Source: Defluviicoccus sp.
GTDB taxonomy: Bacteria > Pseudomonadota > Alphaproteobacteria > MPNO01
Assembly: GCA_028820505.1 (NCBI GenBank)
Contig: JAPPIT010000038.1
Span: forward strand, 1-64,000
Direction of reading: 5' to 3'
DNA length: 64,000 nucleotides
The first letter of the stretch is position 1. Every line of letters begins with the position of its first letter. The notes under the pieces are model-generated. The model did no database searches and was not told where the DNA came from. It saw only the letters and a list, made by a program, of their open reading frames with translations. Below are positions 6,136 through 52,097 of the stretch, piece by piece. The translations under genes and the position numbers were made by a program.

Positions 6136-6639
6136 TCAGGCAGCCACGTAGCGGTCGCGCTTCATGCCTTCGAGGTTGACGCCCTCGATGCGGATCAGGC
6201 GCGTGGTGTCCTCGCGGCGCGGCGAATGGAGGTCGCCCTCGTTGTAGCAGGCGGCCATGCCGGGCTCGAGGTTGTAGACCCGGACGGCCTCGACCGTGCC
6301 GGGCTCGCCGCCCTCGGGCGCCTTCAGCTTGCGCCATTCGGTCATCTCGGTGACGCCTTCGGCCTGGCCGTAGATCGCCCAGGACGGGCCGTGGTCGTGC
6401 GGCGTGCTGCCCTTCGCGCCCTCGTAGACATGGGCGAGGATGCAGAACCCGTAATCGGGATCCTCGTACAAAACCTTGCGGGGCGTCGTGTTGTCGGGGC
6501 CGAAATGGGCGGCGACGAATTCCTTGTCCTTGAGCGCCGTCTCGACATGCCTGCGCACCGTCTCGCGGCCGCCGGGGCCGTTGTCGGCGTCGATCGCCGC
6601 GTGGCAGTCTGCGGCAAGCTGTTCGAGCGTGTAGGCCAT
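6136..6639 (-). CDS. Cupin-fold metal-dependent protein (cysteine dioxygenase-like)
   Basis: A 167-residue protein of the cysteine dioxygenase-like double-stranded beta-helix type. The metal motif STPHDHGPSWAIYGQAEG resembles the H-x-H of thiol dioxygenases and related cupins, and YNEGDLHSPRRE would supply the third histidine. The start at 6639 (MAYTLEQLAAD) begins the conserved helical N-terminus; the longer frame upstream is not conserved-looking. It is divergent from the next cupin gene, with 64 bases between them. It may oxidise a thiol or small acid; the substrate is unknown. Confidence 0.78.
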   Translation of the reverse strand: MAYTLEQLAADCHAAIDADNGPGGRETVRRHVETALKDKEFVAAHFGPDNTTPRKVLYEDPDYGFCILAHVYEGAKGSTPHDHGPSWAIYGQAEGVTEMTEWRKLKAPEGGEPGTVEAVRVYNLEPGMAACYNEGDLHSPRREDTTRLIRIEGVNLEGMKRDRYVAA

Positions 6640-6703
6640 GGTCCGGTCTCCGGGCGAATGGGATCGGCGCGCATTATAACCGGGGCCGCGGGGGAGGCGA
6701 GCG

Positions 6704-7141
6704 ATGCGGGTGAGGCGGGTGGTCACCGGCCACGACGGGACCGGGAAATCGGTGGCGATCATCGACGATATCGCCACCAACGCGACATCGCGGCGCCACG
6801 GCCACGATTCGCGGCTGATCTGGACCACCGACGGCGAAACCCCGCCCAACCGAGGGAACGAGGACGCCGGCGCGCGACAGGTCGGCCGCCCGCCGGCGGG
6901 CGGCGGAACCATCTTCCGCGTTCTCGAGCTCCAGCCCGATCAGGAGCTCGAGATGCACCGGACGGCGACCGTCGATTACGTGGTCATGATCGAAGGCGAG
7001 ATGAACCTCGTTCTCGACGACACCGAGATCCCGCTCCGCCCCGGCGATTGCCTCGTCCAGCGCGGCACCAACCACGCCTGGCGCAACACCGGCGACGGCC
7101 CCTGCCGCTTCGCCGCCGTGCTGGTCGATGCACCGGGGTAG
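6704..7141 (+). CDS. Cupin domain protein
   Basis: A 145-residue single-domain cupin. The first motif region is EMHRTATVDYVVMIEGEMNL and the second is PLRPGDCLVQRGTNHAW, so the usual metal histidines are present (H in MHR, H in NHAW). Proteins like this are metal-binding isomerases, dioxygenases or small-molecule sensors. It lies alone between divergent and palindromic sequence, so the context gives no clear role. Confidence 0.8.
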   Translation: MRVRRVVTGHDGTGKSVAIIDDIATNATSRRHGHDSRLIWTTDGETPPNRGNEDAGARQVGRPPAGGGTIFRVLELQPDQELEMHRTATVDYVVMIEGEMNLVLDDTEIPLRPGDCLVQRGTNHAWRNTGDGPCRFAAVLVDAPG

Positions 7142-7367: not shown

Positions 7368-9002
7368 ATGGCGGGCGCGAGCCGCGGCTATGCCGATTTG
7401 CAGGAACATCTGGAAGCGCTCGACGCGGCCGGGCTGCTGCTGACCGTCGACGAGCCGGTCAACAAGGACACCGAGATGGTGCCGCTCGTCCGCTGGCAGT
7501 TCCGCGGCGGGCTCGACGAGGAAGAGCGCCGCGCCTTCCTGTTCCGCAACGTCACCGACAGCCTCGACCGGCGCTACGACATTCCGGTGGTGATCGGCGC
7601 GCTCGCCGCCAACCGCGCGGTCTACAGCACCGGCATGAAGGCGGAGGTCGCGGAAATTCCGGGCAAGTGGGACCGGGCCATCGCCAACCCGATACCGCCG
7701 CGCCGGGTCAACACCGCGCCCTGTCAGGAGGTGGTGATCGAAGGCGACGCGCTGCTCGGCGAGGGGAACGGGCTCGATGCGCTGCCGATCCCGATCTCGA
7801 CGCCCGGCTTCGACAGCGCGCCGACGCTCGCCGCGACCAACGTGATCACGCGCGACCCGGAAACCGGCGTGCAGAACATGGGAACCTACCGCGCCGCGCT
7901 GAAGGCGCCGGACCGGCTGGTGGTCCGCATGGCGACCCGGGTGGGCGGCGCCGGCGGCTACGTCCACTGGAAGAAGCACAAGGCGAAGGGCGAGGCGCTG
8001 CCGTGCGCGATCGTCCTCGGCTGTCCGCCGTTGGTCGCCTTCATGGGGCCGCAGAAGCTGCAGATCGACATGGACGAGTTCGGCGTCGCCGGGGGGCTGG
8101 CGAACGAGCCCATCAACGTGGTGCGCGGCAAGACGGTGGATCTTCTGGTTCCGGCGGAGGCCGAGCTGGTGATCGAGGGGACGATCGACACCGACACGCT
8201 GGAGCCCGAGGGACCGTTCGGCGAGAGCCACGGCCATGTCGCGCTCGAGGAATTCAACATGCCGATGCGGGTCACCGCCATCACCCGCAAGGCGAGCCCC
8301 GTCATCCCCTCCTATATCAGCCAGGTCGCGCCGTCCGAATCGAGCGTGATGAAGCGGGTCTCCTACGAGCCGCTGTTCCTCGGCCATCTCCGCGACACGC
8401 TCGGCGTCAAGGCGGTCACCGCGGTCTCGCTGCACGAGAAGCTCACCGGGTTGCTGCGGGTGACGATCGTCACGCTGGAGCGCAGCGCGCCGCGCACCGA
8501 GGTGTGGCGCGCGCTCTACGGCGCGGCGAGCTTCAAGGGCGATTGCAGCAAGATATGCATCGCGGTCAACGACGACATCGACGGCGACAATGCCGATGCG
8601 GTCCTCTGGGCGATGGCCTATCGCCACAACCCCGTGGAGGACGTCGTTCTCCTGCCCCATCGCGGCCAGGGACACGGGCCCAAGCGGGAGCACAAGGGGG
8701 AGGAGGACTCGACCTTCCTGATCGACGCGACGATGAAGTCGCCGATGCCGCCTTTGGCGCTCCCGACCCGCGAATACATGGAGGGTGCGAAGGCGCTCTG
8801 GGAACGGCTGGGCCTTCCGAAACTCAAGCCGGAGTCGCCGTGGCACGGCTATTCGCTGGGCGACTGGTCGGACGATTGGGAACAGGCGGCAAAGCGCGCG
8901 GCGGACGGACATTACCTCGATAACGGAAGGCGCACCCTGCAACGCCAGCGTCCAGGACTGGTGCCCGAAACGTCGGTCCGCGACGTCGAAACGGATTGCT
9001 AA
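7368..9002 (+). CDS. UbiD family decarboxylase (prenylated-FMN dependent)
   Basis: A 544-residue UbiD-family protein. These enzymes use prenylated FMN and Mn/K to decarboxylate, or carboxylate, aromatic or conjugated acids. Typical motifs are present: the N-terminal DLQEHLEALDAAGLL, the middle domain, and EPEGPFGESHGH followed by a long C-terminal helix region. ATG 7368 is preceded by GAAGGAGAGG. The next two genes, a flavin monooxygenase and a binding protein, follow within 20 bases. Decarboxylation followed by ring hydroxylation is a common order in aromatic breakdown. No UbiX partner is seen here, so the cofactor must be made elsewhere. Confidence 0.92.
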   Translation: MAGASRGYADLQEHLEALDAAGLLLTVDEPVNKDTEMVPLVRWQFRGGLDEEERRAFLFRNVTDSLDRRYDIPVVIGALAANRAVYSTGMKAEVAEIPGKWDRAIANPIPPRRVNTAPCQEVVIEGDALLGEGNGLDALPIPISTPGFDSAPTLAATNVITRDPETGVQNMGTYRAALKAPDRLVVRMATRVGGAGGYVHWKKHKAKGEALPCAIVLGCPPLVAFMGPQKLQIDMDEFGVAGGLANEPINVVRGKTVDLLVPAEAELVIEGTIDTDTLEPEGPFGESHGHVALEEFNMPMRVTAITRKASPVIPSYISQVAPSESSVMKRVSYEPLFLGHLRDTLGVKAVTAVSLHEKLTGLLRVTIVTLERSAPRTEVWRALYGAASFKGDCSKICIAVNDDIDGDNADAVLWAMAYRHNPVEDVVLLPHRGQGHGPKREHKGEEDSTFLIDATMKSPMPPLALPTREYMEGAKALWERLGLPKLKPESPWHGYSLGDWSDDWEQAAKRAADGHYLDNGRRTLQRQRPGLVPETSVRDVETDC

Positions 9003-9018
9003 GGCCGAGGAGGATCGG

Positions 9019-10197
9019 ATGGCCGCGGATGTGAACTTGCGCGAGTCGCTGACCGAGAAGGCGGCGGCGATGGTGCCGGTGCTGCTGGAACGCCAGAAGG
9101 AGGCCGACGCTCTGCGCCGGATGCCCGATTCCACCCACCGCGACTTCGTGGACGCCGGCTTCTACCGGATCTTCCAGCCGAAGCGATATGGCGGATTCGA
9201 ATGCGAGAACCGGACGCTCATCGACATCGCGGTCCAGCTTGGCCGCGGCTGCGGGTCGAGCGCCTGGGTCTTCACCAACCTGGTGGCCCATAGCCTGGTG
9301 ATCTCGATGAACTGCGTCGAGGCGCAGGACGACGTCTGGGGCGACAACCCGGAAGCCTTGATCGCCTCGGGTCTCTCGGTCAGCGGCGCGACCACCACGC
9401 CGGTCGAGGACGGCGTCGTGCTCGACGGGCTGTGGAGCTTTTCGAGCGGGGTCGACTTCGCCGACTATCTCCATCTTCAGGTCTTCGTGCCGCAGGAGGA
9501 GGGGCCGCCCGAGCCCCGCTTTGCGCTGGTGCCCAAGGGCTCGTTCGAGATCGTCGACGACTGGAACGCAACCGGTCTGCTGGCGACCGGCAGCAAGTCG
9601 GTGCGGCTGAAAGAGGTGTTCGTGCCCAATTACCGGACCGTCGCCGCCGGCGTGCTCTCCGGCGGCAAGGGGCTCAGCCGGCACATCAACTCGGCGCCGC
9701 TCTACCAGATTTCCATCTGGTCGTCCGGCACCCAGATCTTCCCGGCCCCCGCGGTCGGTATCGCGCGTGGCGCGCTCGACTATGTCGAGCACGAGTTCCG
9801 GGACAGGGTGGGCGTGGTCGGGGTCAAGCTCGCCGAGCTGCCGACCGCGCAGGCCCGCGTCGCCGAGGCGAATGCCGAGATCGACGCGGCGCTCGCGCTG
9901 CTTCTCCAGGTCAGCCACGAGGCGAACGAGTTCGCCGAGCGCGACGAGCATCCGGAACTCGAACAACGCGCCCGCTGGCGGCTCAACAACGCCTATGCGA
10001 CGCAGCTTTCGATCCGCGCGGTGGAACGGCTCTACCCGCTCCTCGGCGCGCGCGGTCTCGATGCGGCGAACCCGTTCATGCGGGCATGGCGGGACGTGCA
10101 CGCGGTGGGCCAGCAGATCACCCAGGCCTGGGACATGCAGGCGACGAATGCCGGGCGGATCCGATTCGGCCTGCCGTCCGTCGATCCCCGTCTCTGA
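9019..10197 (+). CDS. Acyl-CoA dehydrogenase-fold flavin monooxygenase (HsaA/HpaB-like, class D)
   Basis: A 392-residue protein with the acyl-CoA dehydrogenase fold but the sequence style of two-component flavin monooxygenases: RRMPDSTHRDFVDAGFYRIFQPKRYGG, GRGCGSSAWV, a glycine-rich GLWSFSSGVDFADY, and DWNATGLLATGSKSV. Such enzymes hydroxylate aromatic or heterocyclic rings using FMNH2 or FADH2 supplied by a separate reductase. No reductase gene is visible nearby. It begins 16 bases after UbiD, so it probably acts on the UbiD product. An acyl-CoA dehydrogenase role is less likely given the similarity pattern. Confidence 0.85.
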   Translation: MAADVNLRESLTEKAAAMVPVLLERQKEADALRRMPDSTHRDFVDAGFYRIFQPKRYGGFECENRTLIDIAVQLGRGCGSSAWVFTNLVAHSLVISMNCVEAQDDVWGDNPEALIASGLSVSGATTTPVEDGVVLDGLWSFSSGVDFADYLHLQVFVPQEEGPPEPRFALVPKGSFEIVDDWNATGLLATGSKSVRLKEVFVPNYRTVAAGVLSGGKGLSRHINSAPLYQISIWSSGTQIFPAPAVGIARGALDYVEHEFRDRVGVVGVKLAELPTAQARVAEANAEIDAALALLLQVSHEANEFAERDEHPELEQRARWRLNNAYATQLSIRAVERLYPLLGARGLDAANPFMRAWRDVHAVGQQITQAWDMQATNAGRIRFGLPSVDPRL

Positions 10198-10205
10198 GTC
10201 CCCCC

Positions 10206-11192
10206 ATGAAACGAGCGATCGCGCTTGTCGCCGCCATCTTCGTCGCGCTTCCCGCTCAGGCGGCGGAAAAATTCGTCTTCGGCACCAACTGGAAGGCCCA
10301 GGCCGAGCACGGCGGCTTCTACCAGGCGCTGGCGGAGGGCCGTTACGCCAGGTACGGGCTCGACGTGACGATCCGCGAGGGCGGGCCGCAGGTGAACCAC
10401 AACCAGCTGCTCGCGGCGGGGGTGCTCGACGCGGCGATGATCAGCAACAACGCCGAGGGTCTCAACTTCCTCAAGAACGACATTCCGATGGTCACCGTCG
10501 CGGCGTTCTTCCAGAAGGACCCGCAGGTTCTCTTGACCCATCCCGGTTCCGCGATCCGCTCGATCCCGGGGATGAAGGGCCGTCCGATCATGATCTCGGC
10601 CGATGCCCGCGACACCTGGTGGCGCTTTTTCGAGCTCCGTTTCGGGTTCGACGAGAGCCAGATCCGGCGCTACACGTTCAATCTCGCGCCCTTCCTGGTA
10701 AACGAGGACGCGATCCAGCAGGGCTATGTCACCTCCGAGCCCTTCATGGCGCTGCGGGAAGGCGTGAAGGCCAGGGTGTTCCTGATCGCCGATACGGGCT
10801 GGCCCGCCTATTCCACCCTGGTGACCGTCTCCAGGGAGCTCGCGGCGCGCAAGCCCTCAGTCGTGCAACGTTTCCTGAACGCGTCGATCGAGGGCTGGTA
10901 CAGCTACCTCTACGGCGACCCCGGGCCCGGCAACCGCCTCATCGGGAAAACGAACCCGGAGATGCCCGACGCGCTGATCGCCCACGGGATCGCCAAGATG
11001 AAGGAATACGGCATCGTCGATTCGGGCGATGCGCTGACGCTCGGCATCGGCGCCATGACGGAGGAAAGGCTCACCGCGTTCTTCGACGCGATGGTGCGCG
11101 CCGGCGTCTACCCGGCCGACATGGACCACCTGTCGGCGTTCGATCTCCGATTCGTCAACAAGCGGCACGGGCTCGGCATGCGGCCGCGTTGA
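10206..11192 (+). CDS. NMT1/THI5-like ABC transporter substrate-binding protein
   Basis: A 328-residue periplasmic protein with a clear signal peptide (MKRAIALVAAIFVALPAQAA) and the SsuA/THI5 style core (FGTNWKAQAEHGGFYQALAEGRY, GGPQVNHNQLLAAGVLDAAMI). This family binds pyrimidine precursors, sulfonates, phthalates and other aromatic acids. It starts 8 bases after the monooxygenase, suggesting it delivers the substrate of the UbiD/monooxygenase pair. The permease and ATPase it needs are not in this window. Confidence 0.88.
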   Translation: MKRAIALVAAIFVALPAQAAEKFVFGTNWKAQAEHGGFYQALAEGRYARYGLDVTIREGGPQVNHNQLLAAGVLDAAMISNNAEGLNFLKNDIPMVTVAAFFQKDPQVLLTHPGSAIRSIPGMKGRPIMISADARDTWWRFFELRFGFDESQIRRYTFNLAPFLVNEDAIQQGYVTSEPFMALREGVKARVFLIADTGWPAYSTLVTVSRELAARKPSVVQRFLNASIEGWYSYLYGDPGPGNRLIGKTNPEMPDALIAHGIAKMKEYGIVDSGDALTLGIGAMTEERLTAFFDAMVRAGVYPADMDHLSAFDLRFVNKRHGLGMRPR

Positions 11193-11252
11193 CGCGGGGC
11201 CGGGGCGCCCTTAATTCTGCACGCTCCTGTCTGACCGGAGACGAATATCGCG

Positions 11253-11513
11253 ATGGCGTTGCACCGTGCGATCGTTGCTTCGATGGCGGCCGGGCTCGCG
11301 CTGTCGCTCGCGGCGTGCGGAGGCGGCGAGCGGCCCAGGGTCGAGCGGGTTCCCGACCTCGCGCTTGCCTGTCAGACGACGGCGTGCACCTGTTCGGCCG
11401 AGTCGGGCACGATCTTCGAGAAGACGAAGACGACCGAAATTCTCTGGCGCGCCAGCGGCGACGCCTACTGCCCGAAAGGGTTCGTCCTGGAAACCGTGAA
11501 GAAGAGTCCGTAG
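11253..11513 (+). CDS. Small putative lipoprotein
   Basis: An 86-residue protein with a lipoprotein signal (hydrophobic stretch then LSLAACGGG, lipidation at the cysteine). The mature part contains a CQTTACTC cluster and one later cysteine (YCPKG), which could form disulfides in the periplasm. A GGAG site precedes ATG 11253. I do not recognise the family. It is followed by a hairpin and then convergent genes. Confidence 0.6.
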   Translation: MALHRAIVASMAAGLALSLAACGGGERPRVERVPDLALACQTTACTCSAESGTIFEKTKTTEILWRASGDAYCPKGFVLETVKKSP

Positions 11514-11514
11514 C

Positions 11515-11532
11515 GGGGCCGCGCCCGGCCCC
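11515..11532. terminator. Possible bidirectional terminator hairpin
   Basis: GGGGCC-gcgccc-GGCCCC forms a 6-bp all-GC stem in the 33-base gap between the convergent lipoprotein and FAH genes. There is no strong T-run, so termination is plausible but unproven. Confidence 0.4.
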
Positions 11533-11546
11533 GCCCGGCCCGGTCT

Positions 11547-12413
11547 CTATTTCTCCGGCGCGATCGGATTCGACAGCACGCCGATCCCCTCGATCTCGAT
11601 CTCGCAGGTGTCTCCCGGCGTCATGAAGATGGGCGGCTTGCGCACGAAGCCGACGCCCGCCGGCGTGCCGGTGACGATGATGTCGCCGGTCTCCAGCGTG
11701 AAGATCTTGCTGCATTCGTTGACCAGCGTCGCCACGTCGAAAATCATCGACGAGGTGGTCGAGGATTGCAGTGTCTCGCCGTTCAGCCGCGCCTCGATCT
11801 TCAGCCCCTTCGCACCCTTGTTGGGGAGCTCGTCGGGGGTGACGATCTCCGGGCCGAACGAGCCGGAAGCGTCGAAGCTCTTGCCGATCATCCACTGCGA
11901 GGTCTTCAGCTGATAGTCGCGGATCGATCCCTCGTTGGCGATCGAATAGCCGGCGACGTGATCGAGCGCGCGCGCCTTGGCGATGCGGCGGCCCGGCTTG
12001 CCGATGACGGCGACGAGCTCGGCCTCGTAGTCGTGATGCTTCGACGCCTTCGGCCGCAGGATGGGCTGGCCGTGGCCGACCAGCGAAGCCGGGGTGCGCA
12101 GGAACAGCACCGGATAGTCCGGCGGCTTCATGCCGGCCTCGGCCGCGTGGTCGCTGTAGTTCAACCCGACGCAGATCACCTTGCCCGGGTTCGGCACCGG
12201 CGGCAGGTAGTTGACTCGCCGCTTGACCACCGAGCCCTCCGGCGCCCTGCGGGCCGCCCGCGCCGCCCTTGCGAGCGCCCGGTCGCCGCCGGCCAGCAGC
12301 CCGATCATGTCTTGCGGCAGGCTCTCGTCGGCAACCGAAAGATCCACGATGCCGTCGTCGGTACGGACGCCGATGGCGCTGCCGCGACCCTTCTTGAAAC
12401 TCACCAGACGCAT
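11547..12413 (-). CDS. Fumarylacetoacetate hydrolase (FAH) family protein
   Basis: A 288-residue FAH-fold protein. The core shows GLNYSDHAAE, the metal-binding YEAELVAVIG, NEGSIRDYQ, and the C-terminal TGTPAGVGFVRKPP. FAH proteins are Mg-dependent hydrolases, hydratases or decarboxylases acting on 2,4-diketo acids and ring-cleavage products. I place the start at 12413 (MRLVSFKKG), where homology begins. It is the last of seven same-strand genes. With an extradiol-type and a gentisate-type dioxygenase homologue in the same run, it fits the C-C cleaving step after ring opening. Confidence 0.9.
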   Translation of the reverse strand: MRLVSFKKGRGSAIGVRTDDGIVDLSVADESLPQDMIGLLAGGDRALARAARAARRAPEGSVVKRRVNYLPPVPNPGKVICVGLNYSDHAAEAGMKPPDYPVLFLRTPASLVGHGQPILRPKASKHHDYEAELVAVIGKPGRRIAKARALDHVAGYSIANEGSIRDYQLKTSQWMIGKSFDASGSFGPEIVTPDELPNKGAKGLKIEARLNGETLQSSTTSSMIFDVATLVNECSKIFTLETGDIIVTGTPAGVGFVRKPPIFMTPGDTCEIEIEGIGVLSNPIAPEK

Positions 12414-12454
12414 ATCCGTCTCCCCGGTGTTGCGCCGGACGCCATCGCGGCCGG

Positions 12455-13159
12455 CTAGTTTTCGGGATCCCCGTCGGTCAGGTAATCCCACATCCTCTCG
12501 AAAATCCGGCCCGTGCTGGTTGCCCGGGCCTTCGCCTCGTCGAGCGGTATCTCGACCGATTCGGCTTCGCCGCCCGCGGCCATTACCGCGAGTTCGGTAC
12601 GCGCGGCCTCCTCAAGATAGAAGGCCATCACGATGCTTTCCTCGACGGTCGCGCCGGTCAGGATAACGCCGTTGCCGCGCATGACCACCGCGCGCGATTC
12701 GCCCAGGCACTCGGCGAGCCGCGCCGCCGCCTCGTCCGAGCGCAGCAGCGCCGGATCGTCCCACAGCGCCGGTCCGGGCGCGAAGTAGGTCCCGAACCCG
12801 TGCCGCGCGCGCGGCACCCGCCGGAAGGTCGAGAGCGTCATGGTCTCGCGCAGGAAGGTCCGGCAGATGCCGTTGACGTCCGGCCGGCGGCGGTAGATCT
12901 GCTGGTGGCAGCGAACCTCGCCGAGGACGCCGTCCGGCAACGCGCCCTCGACGGGCACCACGGTCCCCGGCTCGCCGGGTCGGATCAGCCCCATTGGCCT
13001 CGGCGCGCAGACCAGGAATCGCTCGTCGTCGAGCCGCGCGCTGACATGGCCGTAGGCGTGGCCGAGATCGTTCCGCGCGAGCGCCCGCGCCGCCTTGCGG
13101 ACGCGAACCTCTGTCGCTTCGATCGGCTCCCCGACCGCGCCGAATTCGGTTTCAGCCAA
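12455..13159 (-). CDS. Class II aldolase/adducin-fold protein lacking the zinc histidines
   Basis: A 234-residue class II aldolase-fold protein. The recognisable block GEVRCHQQIYRRRPDVNGICRTF keeps the acidic residue and the YxxRPD motif. Where fuculose aldolase and relatives have the zinc pair in V-V-H-x-H, this protein has I-C-R-T-F. The third ligand, normally in N-H-G, is N in MRGNGVILTG. All three classical zinc histidines are therefore absent, so it is either a metal-free subfamily enzyme or a non-catalytic homologue. The start is TTG 13159. It sits between the FAH and extradiol-dioxygenase-like genes and may act on a pathway intermediate. Confidence 0.8.
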   Translation of the reverse strand: MAETEFGAVGEPIEATEVRVRKAARALARNDLGHAYGHVSARLDDERFLVCAPRPMGLIRPGEPGTVVPVEGALPDGVLGEVRCHQQIYRRRPDVNGICRTFLRETMTLSTFRRVPRARHGFGTYFAPGPALWDDPALLRSDEAAARLAECLGESRAVVMRGNGVILTGATVEESIVMAFYLEEAARTELAVMAAGGEAESVEIPLDEAKARATSTGRIFERMWDYLTDGDPEN

Positions 13160-13183
13160 GAAACGCCCCCGAGCCGCCCGCTA

Positions 13184-14038
13184 TCAGCTCTTGAACTCCA
13201 CGATGTCCGGCTTCGAGCCCCACATGCAGAGCGAAGAGTCGTCGAAGGGGAATTGCCGCGGCCGGTAATCCGGGTCGTCGATCAGCCGCACCCCGTGGGA
13301 ATATTCGTAGACCATCTCGTCCGGCCCCTCGAAATAGAGGAAGCGGGCGCCCGAGGTCGGGTGACGGCCGGGACCGAAGACGATCCGCACCTGCCGCTCG
13401 GTCAGGAAGTAATGCGAGCGCATGATGTCGTCGACGCTCTCGACCTGGAAGTTGATGTGCTGCACCCCGGGCTCGCTGGCCGGGAACAGGGCGAGGCGGT
13501 GATGCACCTTGTCGAAGGACATCAGCGCCGCGTCGCCGATCCAGTCGTTGGCGCGGATGTTGAAATGTGCCGTCCAGAACGCCTCGTCGCGCGGCGCGTC
13601 GGTGGTCTTGAGCCCGACATGGGAGAATTCCTGGATGCCCGCGTCGCGGCTCGGGAAATAGCGCTTGCCGCTGTGGTACGGCCGGAGCACGAGATCGATG
13701 CTGTTCCCGGTCGGATCGCTGAAATTGAGGAAGTCCGTCACCCGGCGGCGCGCCGCGTCTTCCGGCGTGCCCCGTTTCACTTCGACGCCCGCCGCCTCCA
13801 GCTCGGCGGCGGCGCGGGCGAGCATATCCCCGGTCTCGACCTCGAAGCCAAGCGTGTGGTCGTCCGGCGCGCCCTCGAAATAGCAGAGATTGTGATCCCG
13901 GTCGTCGCCCCGCACATAGGCCGATCCGTTCTCCCGCCGGACCAGCTCCAGGCCGAGGGTCTCGGTCGCGAACCTGACCGCGAAATCGACATCGCGCGTG
14001 CCGAGCCGGACATACCGGATGTCGACGAGCTTGATCAT
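13184..14038 (-). CDS. VOC-superfamily extradiol dioxygenase-like protein
   Basis: A 284-residue two-domain VOC protein resembling 2,3-dihydroxybiphenyl/catechol 2,3-dioxygenases. The C-terminal domain carries the expected 2-His-1-carboxylate iron set: H in FSHVGL, H in VQHINF and E in MVYEYSHG. It would cleave a catechol-type ring next to its hydroxyls. It lies in the minus-strand run between the gentisate-type dioxygenase and the aldolase-fold gene, which supports a role in ring opening. Substrate unknown. Confidence 0.88.
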   Translation of the reverse strand: MIKLVDIRYVRLGTRDVDFAVRFATETLGLELVRRENGSAYVRGDDRDHNLCYFEGAPDDHTLGFEVETGDMLARAAAELEAAGVEVKRGTPEDAARRRVTDFLNFSDPTGNSIDLVLRPYHSGKRYFPSRDAGIQEFSHVGLKTTDAPRDEAFWTAHFNIRANDWIGDAALMSFDKVHHRLALFPASEPGVQHINFQVESVDDIMRSHYFLTERQVRIVFGPGRHPTSGARFLYFEGPDEMVYEYSHGVRLIDDPDYRPRQFPFDDSSLCMWGSKPDIVEFKS

Positions 14039-14111
14039 GGGTCACCTCGTAGTGCGGCGTTTCCCGGGGGCGTCGCCATGATACCCGCGCCGGACCCGCT
14101 TTCAATCGAGT

Positions 14112-15245
14112 CTAGACGAGGCGCACGACCTCTCCGCTATCGGTCTTGCCGAAGCGGCGGAGGAAGCCGAGCGTCGACAGCGTCGGCTCGTCGCTGACCA
14201 CGAACAGGATCGCGTCCTCGCTGTCCGAGCCGTTGACGTGCTCGAACCATGAATTGCCGGGCACGGCGACGGCGTCGAACTGCCGCCAGTCGAGCCTTTC
14301 GCCGTCGACGATCGTGTGGCCGCTACCCTCGAAGGGGAAGCAGACGAGGCTCGCGTTCTGGCGCTGCGGGCGGGTGCGCTCGCCGGGCCGGAGCAGCTGG
14401 CCGAAGAAGGTCATGGTGGGGTAGGGCGCGCGGCCGGTCGTCGGATCGGTGTACTCCACCGCGATCGCGTCGTACGGGCTGCCCTCGTGGTCGCGGAAAT
14501 TCTCCAGGAGTTCCCGCGTCGCGTCCCAGCGATAGACATACATCGGCGACGAACGCCCGGCGCCGCGCCCGTGATCGACGAAGCGCGGCAACAGCCCGCC
14601 CTTGCCGTAGACCCGCGACGAGTGGTCGTCGGAGAAGCGGGCCGTCTGCTCGCTCCTGGCGATGCCGCCCTCCTTGTAGCGGTGCTCGAAGCTCGCCGCG
14701 TTCAGGACCTCGCTCAGCGGCAGGTCGAGCACGCTGACATTGACGGCGAAATCGTCGCCATGGTTGCCGTGGTTGTGCCACGCGTCCGCCGGGGTCAGGA
14801 CCAGGTCGCCCGGCCCGAAGACGATGTCCTCGCCCTCGACGCCGGTGAAGTTGCTGGCGCCGGTGAGCCCGATCCTGACCGCGTTGATCGAATGCCGGTG
14901 CGGCGGCATGATCTCGCGCGGGTCGTTGAGCCGGTAGGCGGTATAGAGCGTCGTCACCGTCGCGCGGACCGGGGCGAGGCCGGGATTGACCAGCACCACC
15001 GACCGGCGCTCCGAATCGTCCATCGTGACCAGCTCCGACGCTTCGTAAAGAATCGGCTCTATGTCCTTGTATTTCCAGACGTAAGCCCGCGCCTTCCCGG
15101 CCTTCAGGATCTGCGCGTCCTCGTCGTTCTCGGTATCGGTCCGGACCGCCCAGTAGGGCGCCATGTCGTGCGCGTCCAGCCTCTCGTAAAGCGCGTCGAG
15201 GCGCGCGTCCCGGTTGGAGCCGGTTGCCGGTTCGACGGTCGCCAT
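14112..15245 (-). CDS. Gentisate 1,2-dioxygenase-like bicupin
   Basis: A 377-residue bicupin. The first cupin holds MPPHRHSINAVRIGLTG and DAWHNHGN, the signature of gentisate/1-hydroxy-2-naphthoate/salicylate 1,2-dioxygenases, with three Fe(II) histidines. The second cupin (LRPGERTRPQRQNASLV) has lost the metal histidines, as is usual in the family. It would open a hydroxylated aromatic acid ring. It starts 31 bases after the isomerase gene on the same strand. Confidence 0.87.
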   Translation of the reverse strand: MATVEPATGSNRDARLDALYERLDAHDMAPYWAVRTDTENDEDAQILKAGKARAYVWKYKDIEPILYEASELVTMDDSERRSVVLVNPGLAPVRATVTTLYTAYRLNDPREIMPPHRHSINAVRIGLTGASNFTGVEGEDIVFGPGDLVLTPADAWHNHGNHGDDFAVNVSVLDLPLSEVLNAASFEHRYKEGGIARSEQTARFSDDHSSRVYGKGGLLPRFVDHGRGAGRSSPMYVYRWDATRELLENFRDHEGSPYDAIAVEYTDPTTGRAPYPTMTFFGQLLRPGERTRPQRQNASLVCFPFEGSGHTIVDGERLDWRQFDAVAVPGNSWFEHVNGSDSEDAILFVVSDEPTLSTLGFLRRFGKTDSGEVVRLV

Positions 15246-15275
15246 GTGTTCTCCTTCCCGTTGCGGCCTTGCGCG

Positions 15276-16097
15276 TCAGACCGCGGTTTCGTGGCGTTCG
15301 ATACAGACCGCGACGACCTCGTCGGGATCGCGCTTCCACCAGTTCCCGGCGGAGAATATCTCGACCTCGTTCATGCCGTCATAGCCCGCCCGCTCGACCA
15401 GCCCGCGGATTCGCGGGATGTCGACCACCCCGTCGCCCATCATGCCCCGGTCGAACACCAGGTCCCGGGTATCCGCCAGCCAGTCGTTGACGTGGAAGGC
15501 GAGGATGCGGTCGCCCGCCCGCGCGATCTCCTCGTCGAGCGCCGGGTCCCACCAGACATGGTAGACGTCCACCGCGACGCCGACGCCCTCGCCGAGCGAA
15601 TCGCAAAGATCGTTGGCCAGCCCGAGCGTGGTCACGCAGCCGCGCGAGGAACAGGTCATCGGGTGCAGCGGCTCGATGGCGAGCGGCACCCCGGCGGCGC
15701 GCGCGGCCGGCAGGATCCCGGCGATCCCCTCGGCGACCCGCGCGCGGGCGCCGGGGAGGTCCTTCGAGCCCTCGGGCAGGCCGCCCGCGAGCATTATCAG
15801 CGCGCGCGCCCCGATCGCCGCGGCCTCCTCTATGGCCCTGAGGTTGTCGTCGATCGTTGCCCGCCAGGTCGACGCGTCGGCGCCGCCGAACATGCCGCCG
15901 CGGCAGAGCCCGGTCACGGTCATGCCGTGGTCGCCGAGCAGCTTCGCGGCCTCGCCCACGCCGCATTCCGCGAGCTTGTCCCGCCAGACGCAAATGCCGC
16001 GCACGCCATGGCGCGCGTAGCCCTCGATCGCCTCGCGCAACGTCCATTGGTCGCGCGTGGTCGCCTGGTTGATTGCGAGCTTCTCGAGCGCCGGCAT
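15276..16097 (-). CDS. Sugar phosphate isomerase/epimerase family protein (AP endonuclease 2-like TIM barrel)
   Basis: A 273-residue TIM barrel of the xylose-isomerase-like family. Motifs include GICVWRDKLAE, IEPLHPM, VDVYHVWWD, AFHVNDW and the terminal NEVEIFS, which supply the divalent-metal E/D/H/E set. ATG 16097 overlaps the stop codon of the DUF993 gene (TGATG). Trios of this family with a DUF993 TIM barrel and a Gfo/Idh/MocA dehydrogenase are typical of inositol-like or sugar-derivative catabolism. Confidence 0.85.
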   Translation of the reverse strand: MPALEKLAINQATTRDQWTLREAIEGYARHGVRGICVWRDKLAECGVGEAAKLLGDHGMTVTGLCRGGMFGGADASTWRATIDDNLRAIEEAAAIGARALIMLAGGLPEGSKDLPGARARVAEGIAGILPAARAAGVPLAIEPLHPMTCSSRGCVTTLGLANDLCDSLGEGVGVAVDVYHVWWDPALDEEIARAGDRILAFHVNDWLADTRDLVFDRGMMGDGVVDIPRIRGLVERAGYDGMNEVEIFSAGNWWKRDPDEVVAVCIERHETAV

Positions 16098-17263
16098 CAG
16101 GCGGCGATCCCGTGCATCCGCATCGTATCCCGCATCCGGCCCGCCGCGAGCTCCGTATCGGGCAGGAGACCCGCCCGGTCCGCGAGGCGGAAGATCTCGG
16201 CGAGGTGGACGATGGACCGCGCGCTCTGCTGCCCGCCGACCATGACGAAATGGTCCTGCAGCCCGCCGAGATAGGCCATGAACACGACGCCTGTCTTGTA
16301 GAACCGCGTCGGCGCCCGGAAGATGTGCCGGGACAGTTGCACGGTCGGCGCGAGGATGGTGCGGAAATCCTCCGTCCTGTTGCCGGACAGCGCGCCGAGA
16401 GCCGCCGACGCCGCCGGCGCGATGGCGTCGAAAATGCCGAGCAGCGCGTCCGAGTAGCCCTCCTCGTCGCCCTCGATGAGCTCCGGATAGTTGAAGTCGT
16501 CGCCGGTATACATCCGCACGCCGTCCGGCAGGCGGCGTCGCAGCGCGATTTCCTTGTCCTTGTCGAGCAGCGAGATCTTGATCCCGTCGACCTTCACCGC
16601 GTTGGCCTCGATCGCCGAAAGGCAGACCTCCATCGCCTCCCAGTGGTCGTCGTGCCCCCAGTAGCCGGCAAGGGCGGGATCGAACATCTCGCCCAGCCAG
16701 TGGACGATCACCGGCTCCGCCACCTGGGACAGGATCCGCTCGTAGACCCTGGCATAGTCCTCCGGCCCCCGCGCCGCCGCGGCCAGGGCGCGCGAAGCCA
16801 TCAGGATTATCCGGCCGCCGGCATCCTCGACCGCAGCGCACTGCTCCTCGTAGGCGGCGATAACCTCCTCGATGGCGGTGTCGGGGTCCGGCGCGAGGTG
16901 ATCGGTCCCCGCGCCCGAGGCGAGCACCGCGCCCGGGGTCGCCCGCGCCTCCGCGACGCTGCGGCGGATGAGTTCGAGCGAAGTCTCCCAGTCGAGCCCC
17001 ATGCCGCGCTGGGCGGTGTCCATCGCCTCCGCGACGCCGAGGCCGAGCGCCCACAGGTGGCGCCTGAAGGCGAGCGTCGCCTCCCAGTCGATCGCGGAAT
17101 CGATCCACGGATCGTTGTCGGCGAGCGGGTCGGCGACGACATGGGCGGCGGCGAAGGCGATCCGGTTGAACGGGCGCTTCGGTCGTTCGGCCGCGGCGCG
17201 CGGCGCGCTCATCTCGAAGGGCACGATCTTGCCGTCGGCGGTCGGCAGGTCGACGCTCGTCAT
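16097..17263 (-). CDS. DUF993 dihydrodipicolinate synthase-like protein
   Basis: A 388-residue protein of the DUF993 group, a long variant of the DHDPS/N-acetylneuraminate lyase TIM barrel. A candidate Schiff-base lysine lies in VKVDGIKISLLD, followed by the family's YTGDDFNYPELI. It should be a cytoplasmic aldolase or lyase. The start at 17263 overlaps the stop of the oxidoreductase gene by four bases, so the three genes 18417-15276 are translationally coupled. Its exact reaction is unknown. Confidence 0.83.
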   Translation of the reverse strand: MTSVDLPTADGKIVPFEMSAPRAAAERPKRPFNRIAFAAAHVVADPLADNDPWIDSAIDWEATLAFRRHLWALGLGVAEAMDTAQRGMGLDWETSLELIRRSVAEARATPGAVLASGAGTDHLAPDPDTAIEEVIAAYEEQCAAVEDAGGRIILMASRALAAAARGPEDYARVYERILSQVAEPVIVHWLGEMFDPALAGYWGHDDHWEAMEVCLSAIEANAVKVDGIKISLLDKDKEIALRRRLPDGVRMYTGDDFNYPELIEGDEEGYSDALLGIFDAIAPAASAALGALSGNRTEDFRTILAPTVQLSRHIFRAPTRFYKTGVVFMAYLGGLQDHFVMVGGQQSARSIVHLAEIFRLADRAGLLPDTELAAGRMRDTMRMHGIAA

Positions 17264-18417
17264 CGGCCGGTCTCCAGGGGCTCGACGTCGATCCAGCGCC
17301 GCTCCTCCCAGCTCTGCATCGCGCGCTCGGCGAGCTGGACGCCCTTTGCGCCCTCCAGGAGGTTCCAGGTGAACGGCCCGTCGTCGTATAGCGAGCGGAT
17401 GAACATCTCCCATTCGGTCTTGAAGCCGTTGTCGAAGGAAAGGTCGGACCCGTATTCCTCCCAGGTGCCGAAAAAGTCGATGGTCTGCGGCTCGTCCGGG
17501 TTCCACACCGGGGAAGGGGTGGCCTCCCGGTCCTGCACGAAGCAGCGTGTGAGCCCCGACACCGCGGCCCCGAGGACGCCGTCGGCGTGGAAGGTCACGA
17601 GGTCGTCCTTGCGTACGCGCGTGCACCATGAGGCGAAGATCTGCGCGACGGCGCCGTTGTCGAGCTCGATCATCGCGCAGGACCCGTCGTCGGCATCGGC
17701 GTGATATGGCTCGTCGTTCTCGTCCCAGCGCCGGTCGAAGTTGATCGCGCCGCGGCAGACGACGCTCCGCACCTTGCCGAACACGTTGTCGAGCACGTAG
17801 CGCCAGTGCGGCATCATGTCGAGGATGATCCCGCCGGCATCGGCCTTGCGGTAGTTCCAGGACGGCCGCTGCGCCCGCCGCCAGTCGCCCTCGAACACCC
17901 AGTAGCCGAAATCGATCTTGACCGAGAGCAGCCGGCCGAGCACGCCGTCGTCGATCAGCCGCTTCATCTTGAGCAGGCCGGGGAGGAAGATCTTGTCCTG
18001 GACGACGCCGTGGCGGACGCCCGCCTTCTCGGCGCGGCGGTACAGGTCGAGCGCGTCCTCCAGCGTCGCGGCCGACGGCTTCTCGCAGTAGATATGCTTG
18101 CCCGCGTCGATGGCTTTGCGCAGGATCTCGGCGCGATGGACGGTGCTCGCGGTATCGAAGAACAGCGGATAATCGGGGTCCCGGATGGCCGCGTCGAGAT
18201 CGGTCGTCCACTTGTCGAAACCGTGGGCGGCGCCGAGCGCGGCGAGCTTGTCTTCGCTGCGTCCGACGAAAAGCGGGTCGGGGGCGACCCGCCGCCCGTC
18301 GCTCAGCGCGACGCCGCCTTCCTCGCAAATTTTCGCGATCGACCGGATGAGATGCTGGTTGGTGCCCATCCGGCCGCTGACGCCGTTCATCGCCACGCCG
18401 AGACGAATTTCGGCCAT
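17260..18417 (-). CDS. Gfo/Idh/MocA family oxidoreductase
   Basis: A 385-residue NAD(P)-dependent dehydrogenase. The Rossmann start [15 protein letters not shown], the catalytic-region motif YCEKPSA, and the C-terminal beta-sheet domain are all present. Enzymes of this family oxidise or reduce sugar and cyclitol derivatives. It is the first gene of the minus-strand run, and the 80-base gap to the divergent gene at 18498 should hold both promoters. Confidence 0.9.
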
Positions 18418-51140: not shown

Positions 51141-52097
51141 ATGCCGCGCTTCAGGGACTTCGAGCCGACCGGGGTGATTCCGGCGACGCTGCTCGCGTTC
51201 AACGAGGATTTCAGCATCGACGAAGAGGCGACGCGGCGGCATCTGCGCGACGTGTGCTCGGTGGACGGGATCAGCGCGGTCGCGGTCAACGCGCACGCGT
51301 CCGAGGTCCACGCCTGCACCTTCGAGGAGCAGGTCCGCATCCTCGACCTCACGATGGAGGAGGTAGGCGACCGCCTGCCGGTGATCAACGGGGTCTATGC
51401 CGACGGCAGCCTCGAGGCGGCGAAGATCGCCCGCATGGCCGAGGCCGGCGGCGCGTCGGCGCTGCTGGTCCTGCCGCCCCATTCGATCGGGCTGTTCGGC
51501 GGACAGAAGCGGCCGGAGAGCGCGGTCACCCATTTCAAGACCATCGCCGACGCGACCGACCTCCCCATCGTCGTGTTCCAGTACCCGGGGGCCTATGCCT
51601 ATCCGCTGGATACGCTGCTCCGCATGGCCGACGAGGTGCCGACGATCCGCGCGATCAAGGACTGGTCGCCGCCGATGGAGCATGAGCGCCACATCCGCGT
51701 CCTCCAGTCGCTGCCGCGCCCGGTGCATGTGCTGAGCACCAACAGCGCCTGGCTGATGTCGTCCCTGACAATGGGCTGCCACGGGCTCCTGTCCGGCGCG
51801 GGGAGCGTGATCGCCGACCTCCAGGTCGCCCTGTTCCGGGCGGTCAGAACGGGCGACCTCGCGCGCGCCCAGGAGATCAACGACCGCATCTACCCGACCG
51901 CCGCCTGCTTCTACGCCGAGCCCTTCGGCGACATGCACAACCGCATGAAGGAGGCGCTGGTGATCCTCGGTCGGCTGCCCCGCGCCGTGGTACGCCCGCC
52001 GCTGGTCAAGCCCGAGCCGGACGAGATCGAGCGAATCGCCCGGGCGATGGCCGATGCCCGCATCGAACGCGCGGGCGCGGTGCTCGAAGCCGCCTGA
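51141..52097 (+). CDS. Dihydrodipicolinate synthase family protein
   Basis: A 318-residue TIM-barrel lyase of the DHDPS/NAL family. The Schiff-base lysine is in TIRAIKDWSPP, the tyrosine in FQYPGAYAYP, and NAHASEVHAC replaces the usual N-G-T-T-G-E. It uses pyruvate or a similar keto acid in an aldol cleavage or condensation. Since the GTTGE motif has changed, it is not the lysine-pathway enzyme; the substrate is unknown. AGGAGAGG precedes ATG 51141. Confidence 0.86.
   Translation: MPRFRDFEPTGVIPATLLAFNEDFSIDEEATRRHLRDVCSVDGISAVAVNAHASEVHACTFEEQVRILDLTMEEVGDRLPVINGVYADGSLEAAKIARMAEAGGASALLVLPPHSIGLFGGQKRPESAVTHFKTIADATDLPIVVFQYPGAYAYPLDTLLRMADEVPTIRAIKDWSPPMEHERHIRVLQSLPRPVHVLSTNSAWLMSSLTMGCHGLLSGAGSVIADLQVALFRAVRTGDLARAQEINDRIYPTAACFYAEPFGDMHNRMKEALVILGRLPRAVVRPPLVKPEPDEIERIARAMADARIERAGAVLEAA

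Follow-up and report, generated by a model that had tools for sequence, protein, structure and literature searches.

The pairing of a gentisate dioxygenase with a fumarylpyruvate hydrolase of the FAH family is standard, and the inositol (iol) and levoglucosan (lgd) modules bring a Gfo/Idh/MocA dehydrogenase together with a TIM-barrel enzyme of the AP_endonuc_2 family. For 2,3-dihydroxybenzoate, ring cleavage by DhbA or OpaC has been reported, and the product then loses its carboxyl group through the action of the class II aldolase DhbB or of OpaD, which belongs to the metallo-dependent hydrolase superfamily (PMC6362003). CmtC and CmtD are described as acting likewise on 2,3-dihydroxy-p-cumate (PMC5224996). 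We have analysed a 64,000-nucleotide stretch of DNA (the window) from Defluviicoccus sp., order MPNO01 of the Alphaproteobacteria (GenBank assembly GCA_028820505.1, contig JAPPIT010000038.1), in which positions 7,368 to 18,417 carry two opposed runs of predicted catabolic genes. In our judgement this is probably a place where three catabolic modules meet, acting much as we propose below: a UbiD decarboxylase block on the plus strand and, in one minus-strand operon, a set of ring-cleavage genes and a trio built around the DUF993 family.

Results

An earlier note on this DNA, made from the sequence alone, had proposed ten genes here, and all ten are present as open frames with coding-type codon bias and family matches. 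On the plus strand lie a predicted UbiD-family (prFMN-type) decarboxylase (7368..9002), an acyl-CoA-dehydrogenase-fold flavin monooxygenase (9019..10197), an NMT1/THI5-type periplasmic binding protein (10206..11192) and, last of the block, a small lipoprotein-like open reading frame (11253..11513). The minus strand carries, in the direction of transcription, a Gfo/Idh/MocA oxidoreductase (MocA; 17260..18417), the DUF993 protein (16097..17263), an AP_endonuc_2 (xylose-isomerase-like) TIM barrel (the isomerase; 15276..16097), a gentisate/aminosalicylate-type bicupin dioxygenase (14112..15245), a type I extradiol dioxygenase of the VOC fold (13184..14038), a class II aldolase-fold protein (12455..13159) and an FAH-family hydrolase (11547..12413). 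The two runs converge at ~11.5 kb, with 33 bp between the stop of the lipoprotein-like frame (11513) and that of the FAH gene. Intergenic gaps within the minus run are at most 73 bp, and the MocA and DUF993 genes overlap, as do those for DUF993 and the isomerase. This suggests one operon per strand; the transcription units are judged from gene spacing because scans for consensus promoter- and terminator-like sites were no better than chance when compared with shuffles (3 against 1.1 expected; 6 against 5.4 expected).

The junction between the two runs was compared in five genomes of the same genus, namely the window's own (G000, a draft of 228 contigs and 5.49 Mb) and G001 to G004. In two of the five, the window and G004, the plus block (UbiD, monooxygenase and binding protein) adjoins the minus operon, and the runs are convergent in both. 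In G001, G002 and G003, the block is found on a contig other than the minus-operon contig, with neighbours as far as the stretch reaches. No FAH gene was found in the ~8 kb past the block in any of the three stretches fetched from these genomes (L166, L167 and L168), and no plus-block gene in at least 5 kb past the FAH gene in G002 and G003 (L034 and L035), where other genes lie instead; the minus-operon contig of G001 stops within the aldolase-fold gene. The location on another contig carries weight only because the sequence was followed for ~5 to 8 kb into the flanks. The earlier note had proposed the two opposed runs as a candidate for one degradation island and had called for neighbourhoods to be compared. 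That comparison bears out the junction in G004 and the window, but it contradicts it in three of the five congeners, and the modules also occur apart. Because the plus block lies away from the minus operon in those three genomes, a one-island pathway is unsupported, and on this test we rejected it as the main reading.

The minus operon is itself composite, consisting of an extradiol/aldolase-fold pair, the gentisate-like cupin with the FAH hydrolase, and the MocA-DUF993-isomerase trio. We searched 27 genomes of the order (G000 to G026); the gene counts given here rest on tblastn or genome searches. An extradiol gene is present in 23 of these genomes and an aldolase-fold gene in the same 23, always adjacent and within 50 bp. 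DUF993 was found in 11 of the 27, and 13 of the 23 genomes with the pair have no DUF993. Full-length relatives of the bicupin (at least 570 bits) occur in 13 of the 27. Ten genomes have both the pair and DUF993, which share a contig neighbourhood in eight and lie on separate contigs in G005 and G018; in G018 the pair, the trio and the gentisate-like gene each lie on a different contig. The sole genome of family f4 (G008) has the FAH, aldolase-fold, extradiol and bicupin genes in one neighbourhood, and DUF993 was not found in it. Within the window's genus the trio and the ring-cleavage genes form a single tight operon, and family f3 has them in an operon-like run. Families f1 and f3 keep the order MocA, DUF993, isomerase, gentisate-like, extradiol, aldolase-fold at ~64-74% identity. 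A sulfatase gene is next to the pair in family f3 (L039 6669-14986; also L038 and L040), and in the same three loci an LVIVD-repeat protein stands between the isomerase and the bicupin.

The extradiol enzyme (family match at 7.7e-22) is a candidate 3,4-dioxygenase of the DhbA/OpaC type. H140, H194 and E245, which we take to be its metal-binding residues, are invariant in all eight proteins compared and align with those of BphC-type structures. Its neighbour, a candidate DhbB-type decarboxylase of the ring-cleavage product, matches the class II aldolase fold (6.9e-18) and has Arg, Phe and Asn opposite the three metal-binding His of PDB 8iqa, presumably the metal ligands of class II aldolases in general. 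The residues concerned (R100, F102 and N163) are invariant in 7/7 members from the order, and four plasmid relatives (L179, L180, L183 and L184) keep the Arg and the Asn, with another non-His residue at the middle position. A literal aldolase role for this protein was set aside because the metal-binding His are replaced. It also falls below the cut-off for PhtC, a 3,4-dihydroxyphthalate decarboxylase (NF053537; 57.5 against 200 bits). Judged by its residues and its company, this is a class II aldolase-fold subfamily lacking the metal-binding His, with Arg and Asn instead, that travels with ring-cleavage dioxygenases.

The plasmid relatives of the pair are informative about its likely role. On a Caballeronia plasmid, extradiol and aldolase-fold genes with 57% and 54% identity to the window pair are preceded by an alpha/beta hydrolase gene, and on their other side lie an FAH-family protein, acetaldehyde dehydrogenase, hydroxyoxovalerate aldolase, a Rieske dioxygenase and a PdxA-like protein. 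A Tistrella plasmid has two extradiol genes, an aldolase-fold gene, 2-hydroxymuconic semialdehyde dehydrogenase and FAH, and ~8 kb further on a cupin (35%) and a second FAH gene (39%), the latter being the one that resembles the window's. Sphingopyxis and Streptomyces plasmids carry gene sets similar to these meta-cleavage operons; the ring-cleavage enzyme of the Streptomyces plasmid was not matched by the window extradiol query. On a conjugative plasmid of Pseudosulfitobacter (L182 8114-13758), two extradiol genes are succeeded by one for an amidohydrolase and by genes of the lower meta-cleavage pathway, an arrangement that looks like the OpaC-OpaD type. With either an aldolase-fold protein or an amidohydrolase adjoining the extradiol genes, the plasmid neighbourhoods mirror both published solutions, the DhbB type and the OpaD type. 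Since the named relatives lie in meta-cleavage operons, the window pair most likely works like DhbA/DhbB, cleaving a 2,3-dihydroxybenzoate-type ring and then decarboxylating the product.

The bicupin scores 207.5 bits against the gentisate 1,2-dioxygenase equivalog TIGR02272, for which the cut-off is 442.1, and so we dropped that label. The HxH...H motif of its first cupin (H116, H118 and H157) is invariant in 8/8 proteins and aligns with PDB 3bu7 and 2d40; HxH and H157/H159 are kept. The FAH-family hydrolase (5.6e-71) is probably its partner, and we infer that the two provide a second ring-cleavage step. The gentisate 1,2-dioxygenase model matches 15 places in the window's genome, only one of them over the cut-off, on contigs C174, C109, C110, C208, C85, C173, C130 and others, and monooxygenase paralogues lie near some of them (C208 and C110).

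The trio is a widespread module. Named genomes were scanned for DUF993, and the best 80 of at least 590 loci were analysed, 23 of these 80 being shorter than 19 kb. MocA sits no further than 200 bp from DUF993 in 72 of the 80, and the isomerase in 60; other neighbours include a TetR relative (59) and a mandelate-racemase-like protein (45), and among transport genes NMT1-type binding proteins (22 and 4 with two queries), TctC (21) and TctA (18). At the thresholds used, none of the 80 loci gave a relative of the window's gentisate-like, extradiol, aldolase-fold, FAH, UbiD, monooxygenase or binding-protein genes. The S. meliloti trio (SMc04130, SMc04132 and SMc04133) has as neighbours sugar ABC transporter genes and a gene annotated as mandelate racemase; its locus tags led to a regulon table that gives no substrate (PMC12542648). 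The literature search found no paper naming DUF993 or 7VPF, or treating the four trio terms together.

All three members of the trio have relatives of solved structure: 4dnh (SMc04132) for DUF993, together with 3ju2 (SMc04130) and 3oqb. The DUF993 protein (family match at 6.8e-186) yields a predicted model with a mean pLDDT of 86, which superposes on 4dnh with Z 53.1 and rmsd 1.7 over 382 aligned residues, and on dihydrodipicolinate synthase (DHDPS) with Z 28.8 at best and rmsd 2.4 over 291 (Foldseek, VIA-align). Residue conservation was assessed on stop-free matches with 90% coverage of the query, which kept 95, 86 and 86 of 95 loci, plus the window. K228 of DUF993 (numbered without the start Met) is invariant in 96/96; K113, D200 and H204 of MocA and E142, D177, H202 and E244 of the isomerase (3.2e-36) are invariant in 87/87, and would have the catalytic or metal-binding roles typical of their families. 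MocA is nearest to inositol and levoglucosan dehydrogenase models, both far below cut-off (66 against 355 and 67.5 against 650 bits). Given the fold match of DUF993 and the conserved residues of all three proteins, a sequence in which the substrate is oxidised, isomerised or dehydrated, and then cleaved is likely. In a search of its own genome with PF00701, the DHDPS family, the DUF993 gene was not among the 6 places listed. A divergent true PF00701 gene lies elsewhere in the window (51165-52046; 112 bits).

Turning to the plus block, the UbiD protein exceeds the cut-offs of PF01977 (1.5e-46) and PF20696, and R175 and E281, presumably the catalytic Arg and Glu, are invariant in 10 aligned proteins (the window's and 9 other UbiD proteins). 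Two matches to PF02441, the UbiX-type flavoprotein family, occur in the genome. The closest plasmid relatives of the window's UbiD are in rhizobia (58%). The Neorhizobium one is accompanied by UbiX, by genes of the xanthine-dehydrogenase family (molybdenum hydroxylases) and by genes for a tripartite tricarboxylate transporter, a setting that would suit a heteroaromatic acid as substrate of the window enzyme without proving one. The HsaA/HpaB-like monooxygenase (PF08028, 1e-27) has HsaA as its best NCBIfam match, at 263.6 bits against an equivalog cut-off of 450 (NF045629). UbiD may form a phenol that the monooxygenase would hydroxylate in the ortho position. The binding protein matches PF09084 at 2.1e-23.

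The monooxygenase is closest to those of G002 and G003 (95-96%), and UbiD and an aminotransferase are closest to G001 (95%); these differing nearest congeners may point to recombination within the block. In G002 the UbiD gene (L167 10778-12525) matches in two pieces, owing to a frameshift, damage or an assembly error. Directly upstream of the window's UbiD are two small cupin-type genes back to back (6136-7141), of which only the plus-strand one matches a Pfam cupin model; the pair stays with UbiD in G001, G002 and G004.

UbiD-domain proteins (PF01977 at E 0.001 or better, counted inside and outside the order) are abundant in this lineage. Between 22 and 37 matches were counted in 25 of the 27 genomes of the order, with 37 in the window's genome and 28 in one genome of 2.5 Mb; the exceptions, with 9 and 1, are genomes that are 71% and 67% complete. 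The 142 genomes of the class sampled outside the order have 0-11, and none in 76. This count speaks for a lineage-wide expansion of prFMN-type decarboxylases that is perhaps more striking than the cluster itself.

Discussion

From the observed gene content, spacing, modularity, conserved residues and neighbourhoods of relatives, we infer the following substrates and reactions. In the first module, the NMT1-type protein would bind a substrate for uptake, UbiD would decarboxylate an aromatic or heteroaromatic acid, and the monooxygenase would hydroxylate the product. In the second, the extradiol enzyme would open a ring of the 2,3-dihydroxybenzoate type, whose carboxylated cleavage product the metal-free aldolase-fold protein would decarboxylate, following the logic of DhbA/DhbB, while the gentisate-like cupin would open a 2,5-dihydroxybenzoate- or aminosalicylate-type ring whose product is hydrolysed by FAH. 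In the third, a substrate resembling a sugar, cyclitol or sugar acid would have a hydroxyl oxidised by MocA and would then be isomerised or dehydrated by the metal TIM barrel, after which DUF993, as a putative Schiff-base lyase of the DHDPS fold, would cleave or dehydrate what results. The second and third modules share an operon here, and the first may have come to lie alongside through local rearrangement. The earlier suggestion that these genes could together decarboxylate, hydroxylate and open a ring thus survives as to the gene identities and an aromatic-acid breakdown role for the dioxygenase part; its union of both runs in one pathway does not.

Several observations weigh against the three-module reading. 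The trio and the ring-cleavage genes are neighbours in 8/10 genomes having both, and a joint pathway in the lineage is therefore possible. The genomes are fragmented draft assemblies. The match of K228, the candidate Schiff-base lysine, to that of DHDPS comes from a weak profile comparison (hhalign, probability 2%) and one pairwise MAFFT alignment. Unlike the meta-cleavage operons of the named plasmid relatives, the window operon has no lower-pathway genes (none in 11547-18417), and the likeness of the pair to DhbA and DhbB is one of gene context and published description.

Other readings put the same genes together differently. The trio might free or convert the sugar-like moiety of an aryl glycoside or C-glycoside, leaving the aglycone to the ring-cleavage genes. 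The nearest models of MocA (levoglucosan and inositol dehydrogenases at 67 and 66 bits, far short of either cut-off), the sugar ABC transporter genes beside the S. meliloti trio, and the tight operon of the genus and operon-like run of family f3 all agree with this, but the window operon was found to hold no glycosidase, no member of a 3-keto-glycoside lyase family and no sugar transporter, and in other bacteria the trio is often accompanied by NMT1-type or TctC/TctA transporters; we regard this reading as unlikely. Alternatively, catabolic genes unrelated to one another may have accumulated in the operon under common control, with no shared substrate; modules that are found alone and rearranged between families speak for this. 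Against this, the gene order kept between f1 and f3 at their degree of divergence suggests selection for the combination, which makes simple accretion quite unlikely. A single linear pathway drawing on both operons, in which UbiD decarboxylation, hydroxylation and ring opening are finished by the aldolase, FAH and the trio, has every enzyme class that it needs, and the runs do lie together in the window and G004. It is quite unlikely in view of the plus block's position elsewhere in three of five congeners, the presence of two different ring-cleavage dioxygenases where one ring does not need both, and an aldolase-fold protein without the class II metal site. Finally, the trio and the two dioxygenases might form one unrecognised route in this order. 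The trio would oxidise and dehydrate a hydroaromatic or cyclitol acid towards a dihydroxybenzoate-type ring for the extradiol or gentisate-like enzyme to open, and DUF993 would represent a new class of Schiff-base lyase; we hold such a route to be very unlikely.

The three-module reading turns a vague 'island' into modules that can be tested. It brings forward a candidate decarboxylase whose class II aldolase fold has lost its metal site, and a widely distributed trio around the little-studied DUF993 family with structural relatives for every member. It also points to a bacterial order with an exceptional number of UbiD decarboxylases.

How, then, does the locus compare with described systems? 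With the gentisate pathway it shares a bicupin bearing the histidine motif of the gentisate dioxygenases in the PDB, with an FAH protein encoded in its operon, but the window bicupin falls far below the equivalog cut-off, which another gene of the genome passes. The trio resembles the iol and lgd modules in pairing a Gfo/Idh/MocA dehydrogenase with an AP_endonuc_2 TIM barrel; it differs from them in reaching no curated cut-off and in having DUF993 in place of the known later steps. DUF993, in turn, has the predicted fold of the DHDPS/N-acetylneuraminate lyase superfamily, but shares only ~12-14% identity with its members and is larger, with extra N- and C-terminal parts. The earlier note had known of no pathway with exactly this gene set. 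That has a partial answer in the standard pairing of a gentisate dioxygenase with an FAH hydrolase and in the extradiol/aldolase-fold pair, which appears to follow the published DhbA/DhbB logic (PMC6362003); the answer does not extend to substrates for the trio or the UbiD/monooxygenase pair. DhbA/DhbB of Pseudomonas reinekei MT1, OpaC/OpaD and CmtC/CmtD likewise place a type I extradiol dioxygenase beside a decarboxylase of its product, and to a set of the DhbA/DhbB type the window operon adds a gentisate-like cupin and the trio. The cluster is thus a variant put together from known kinds of module, plus one widespread module.

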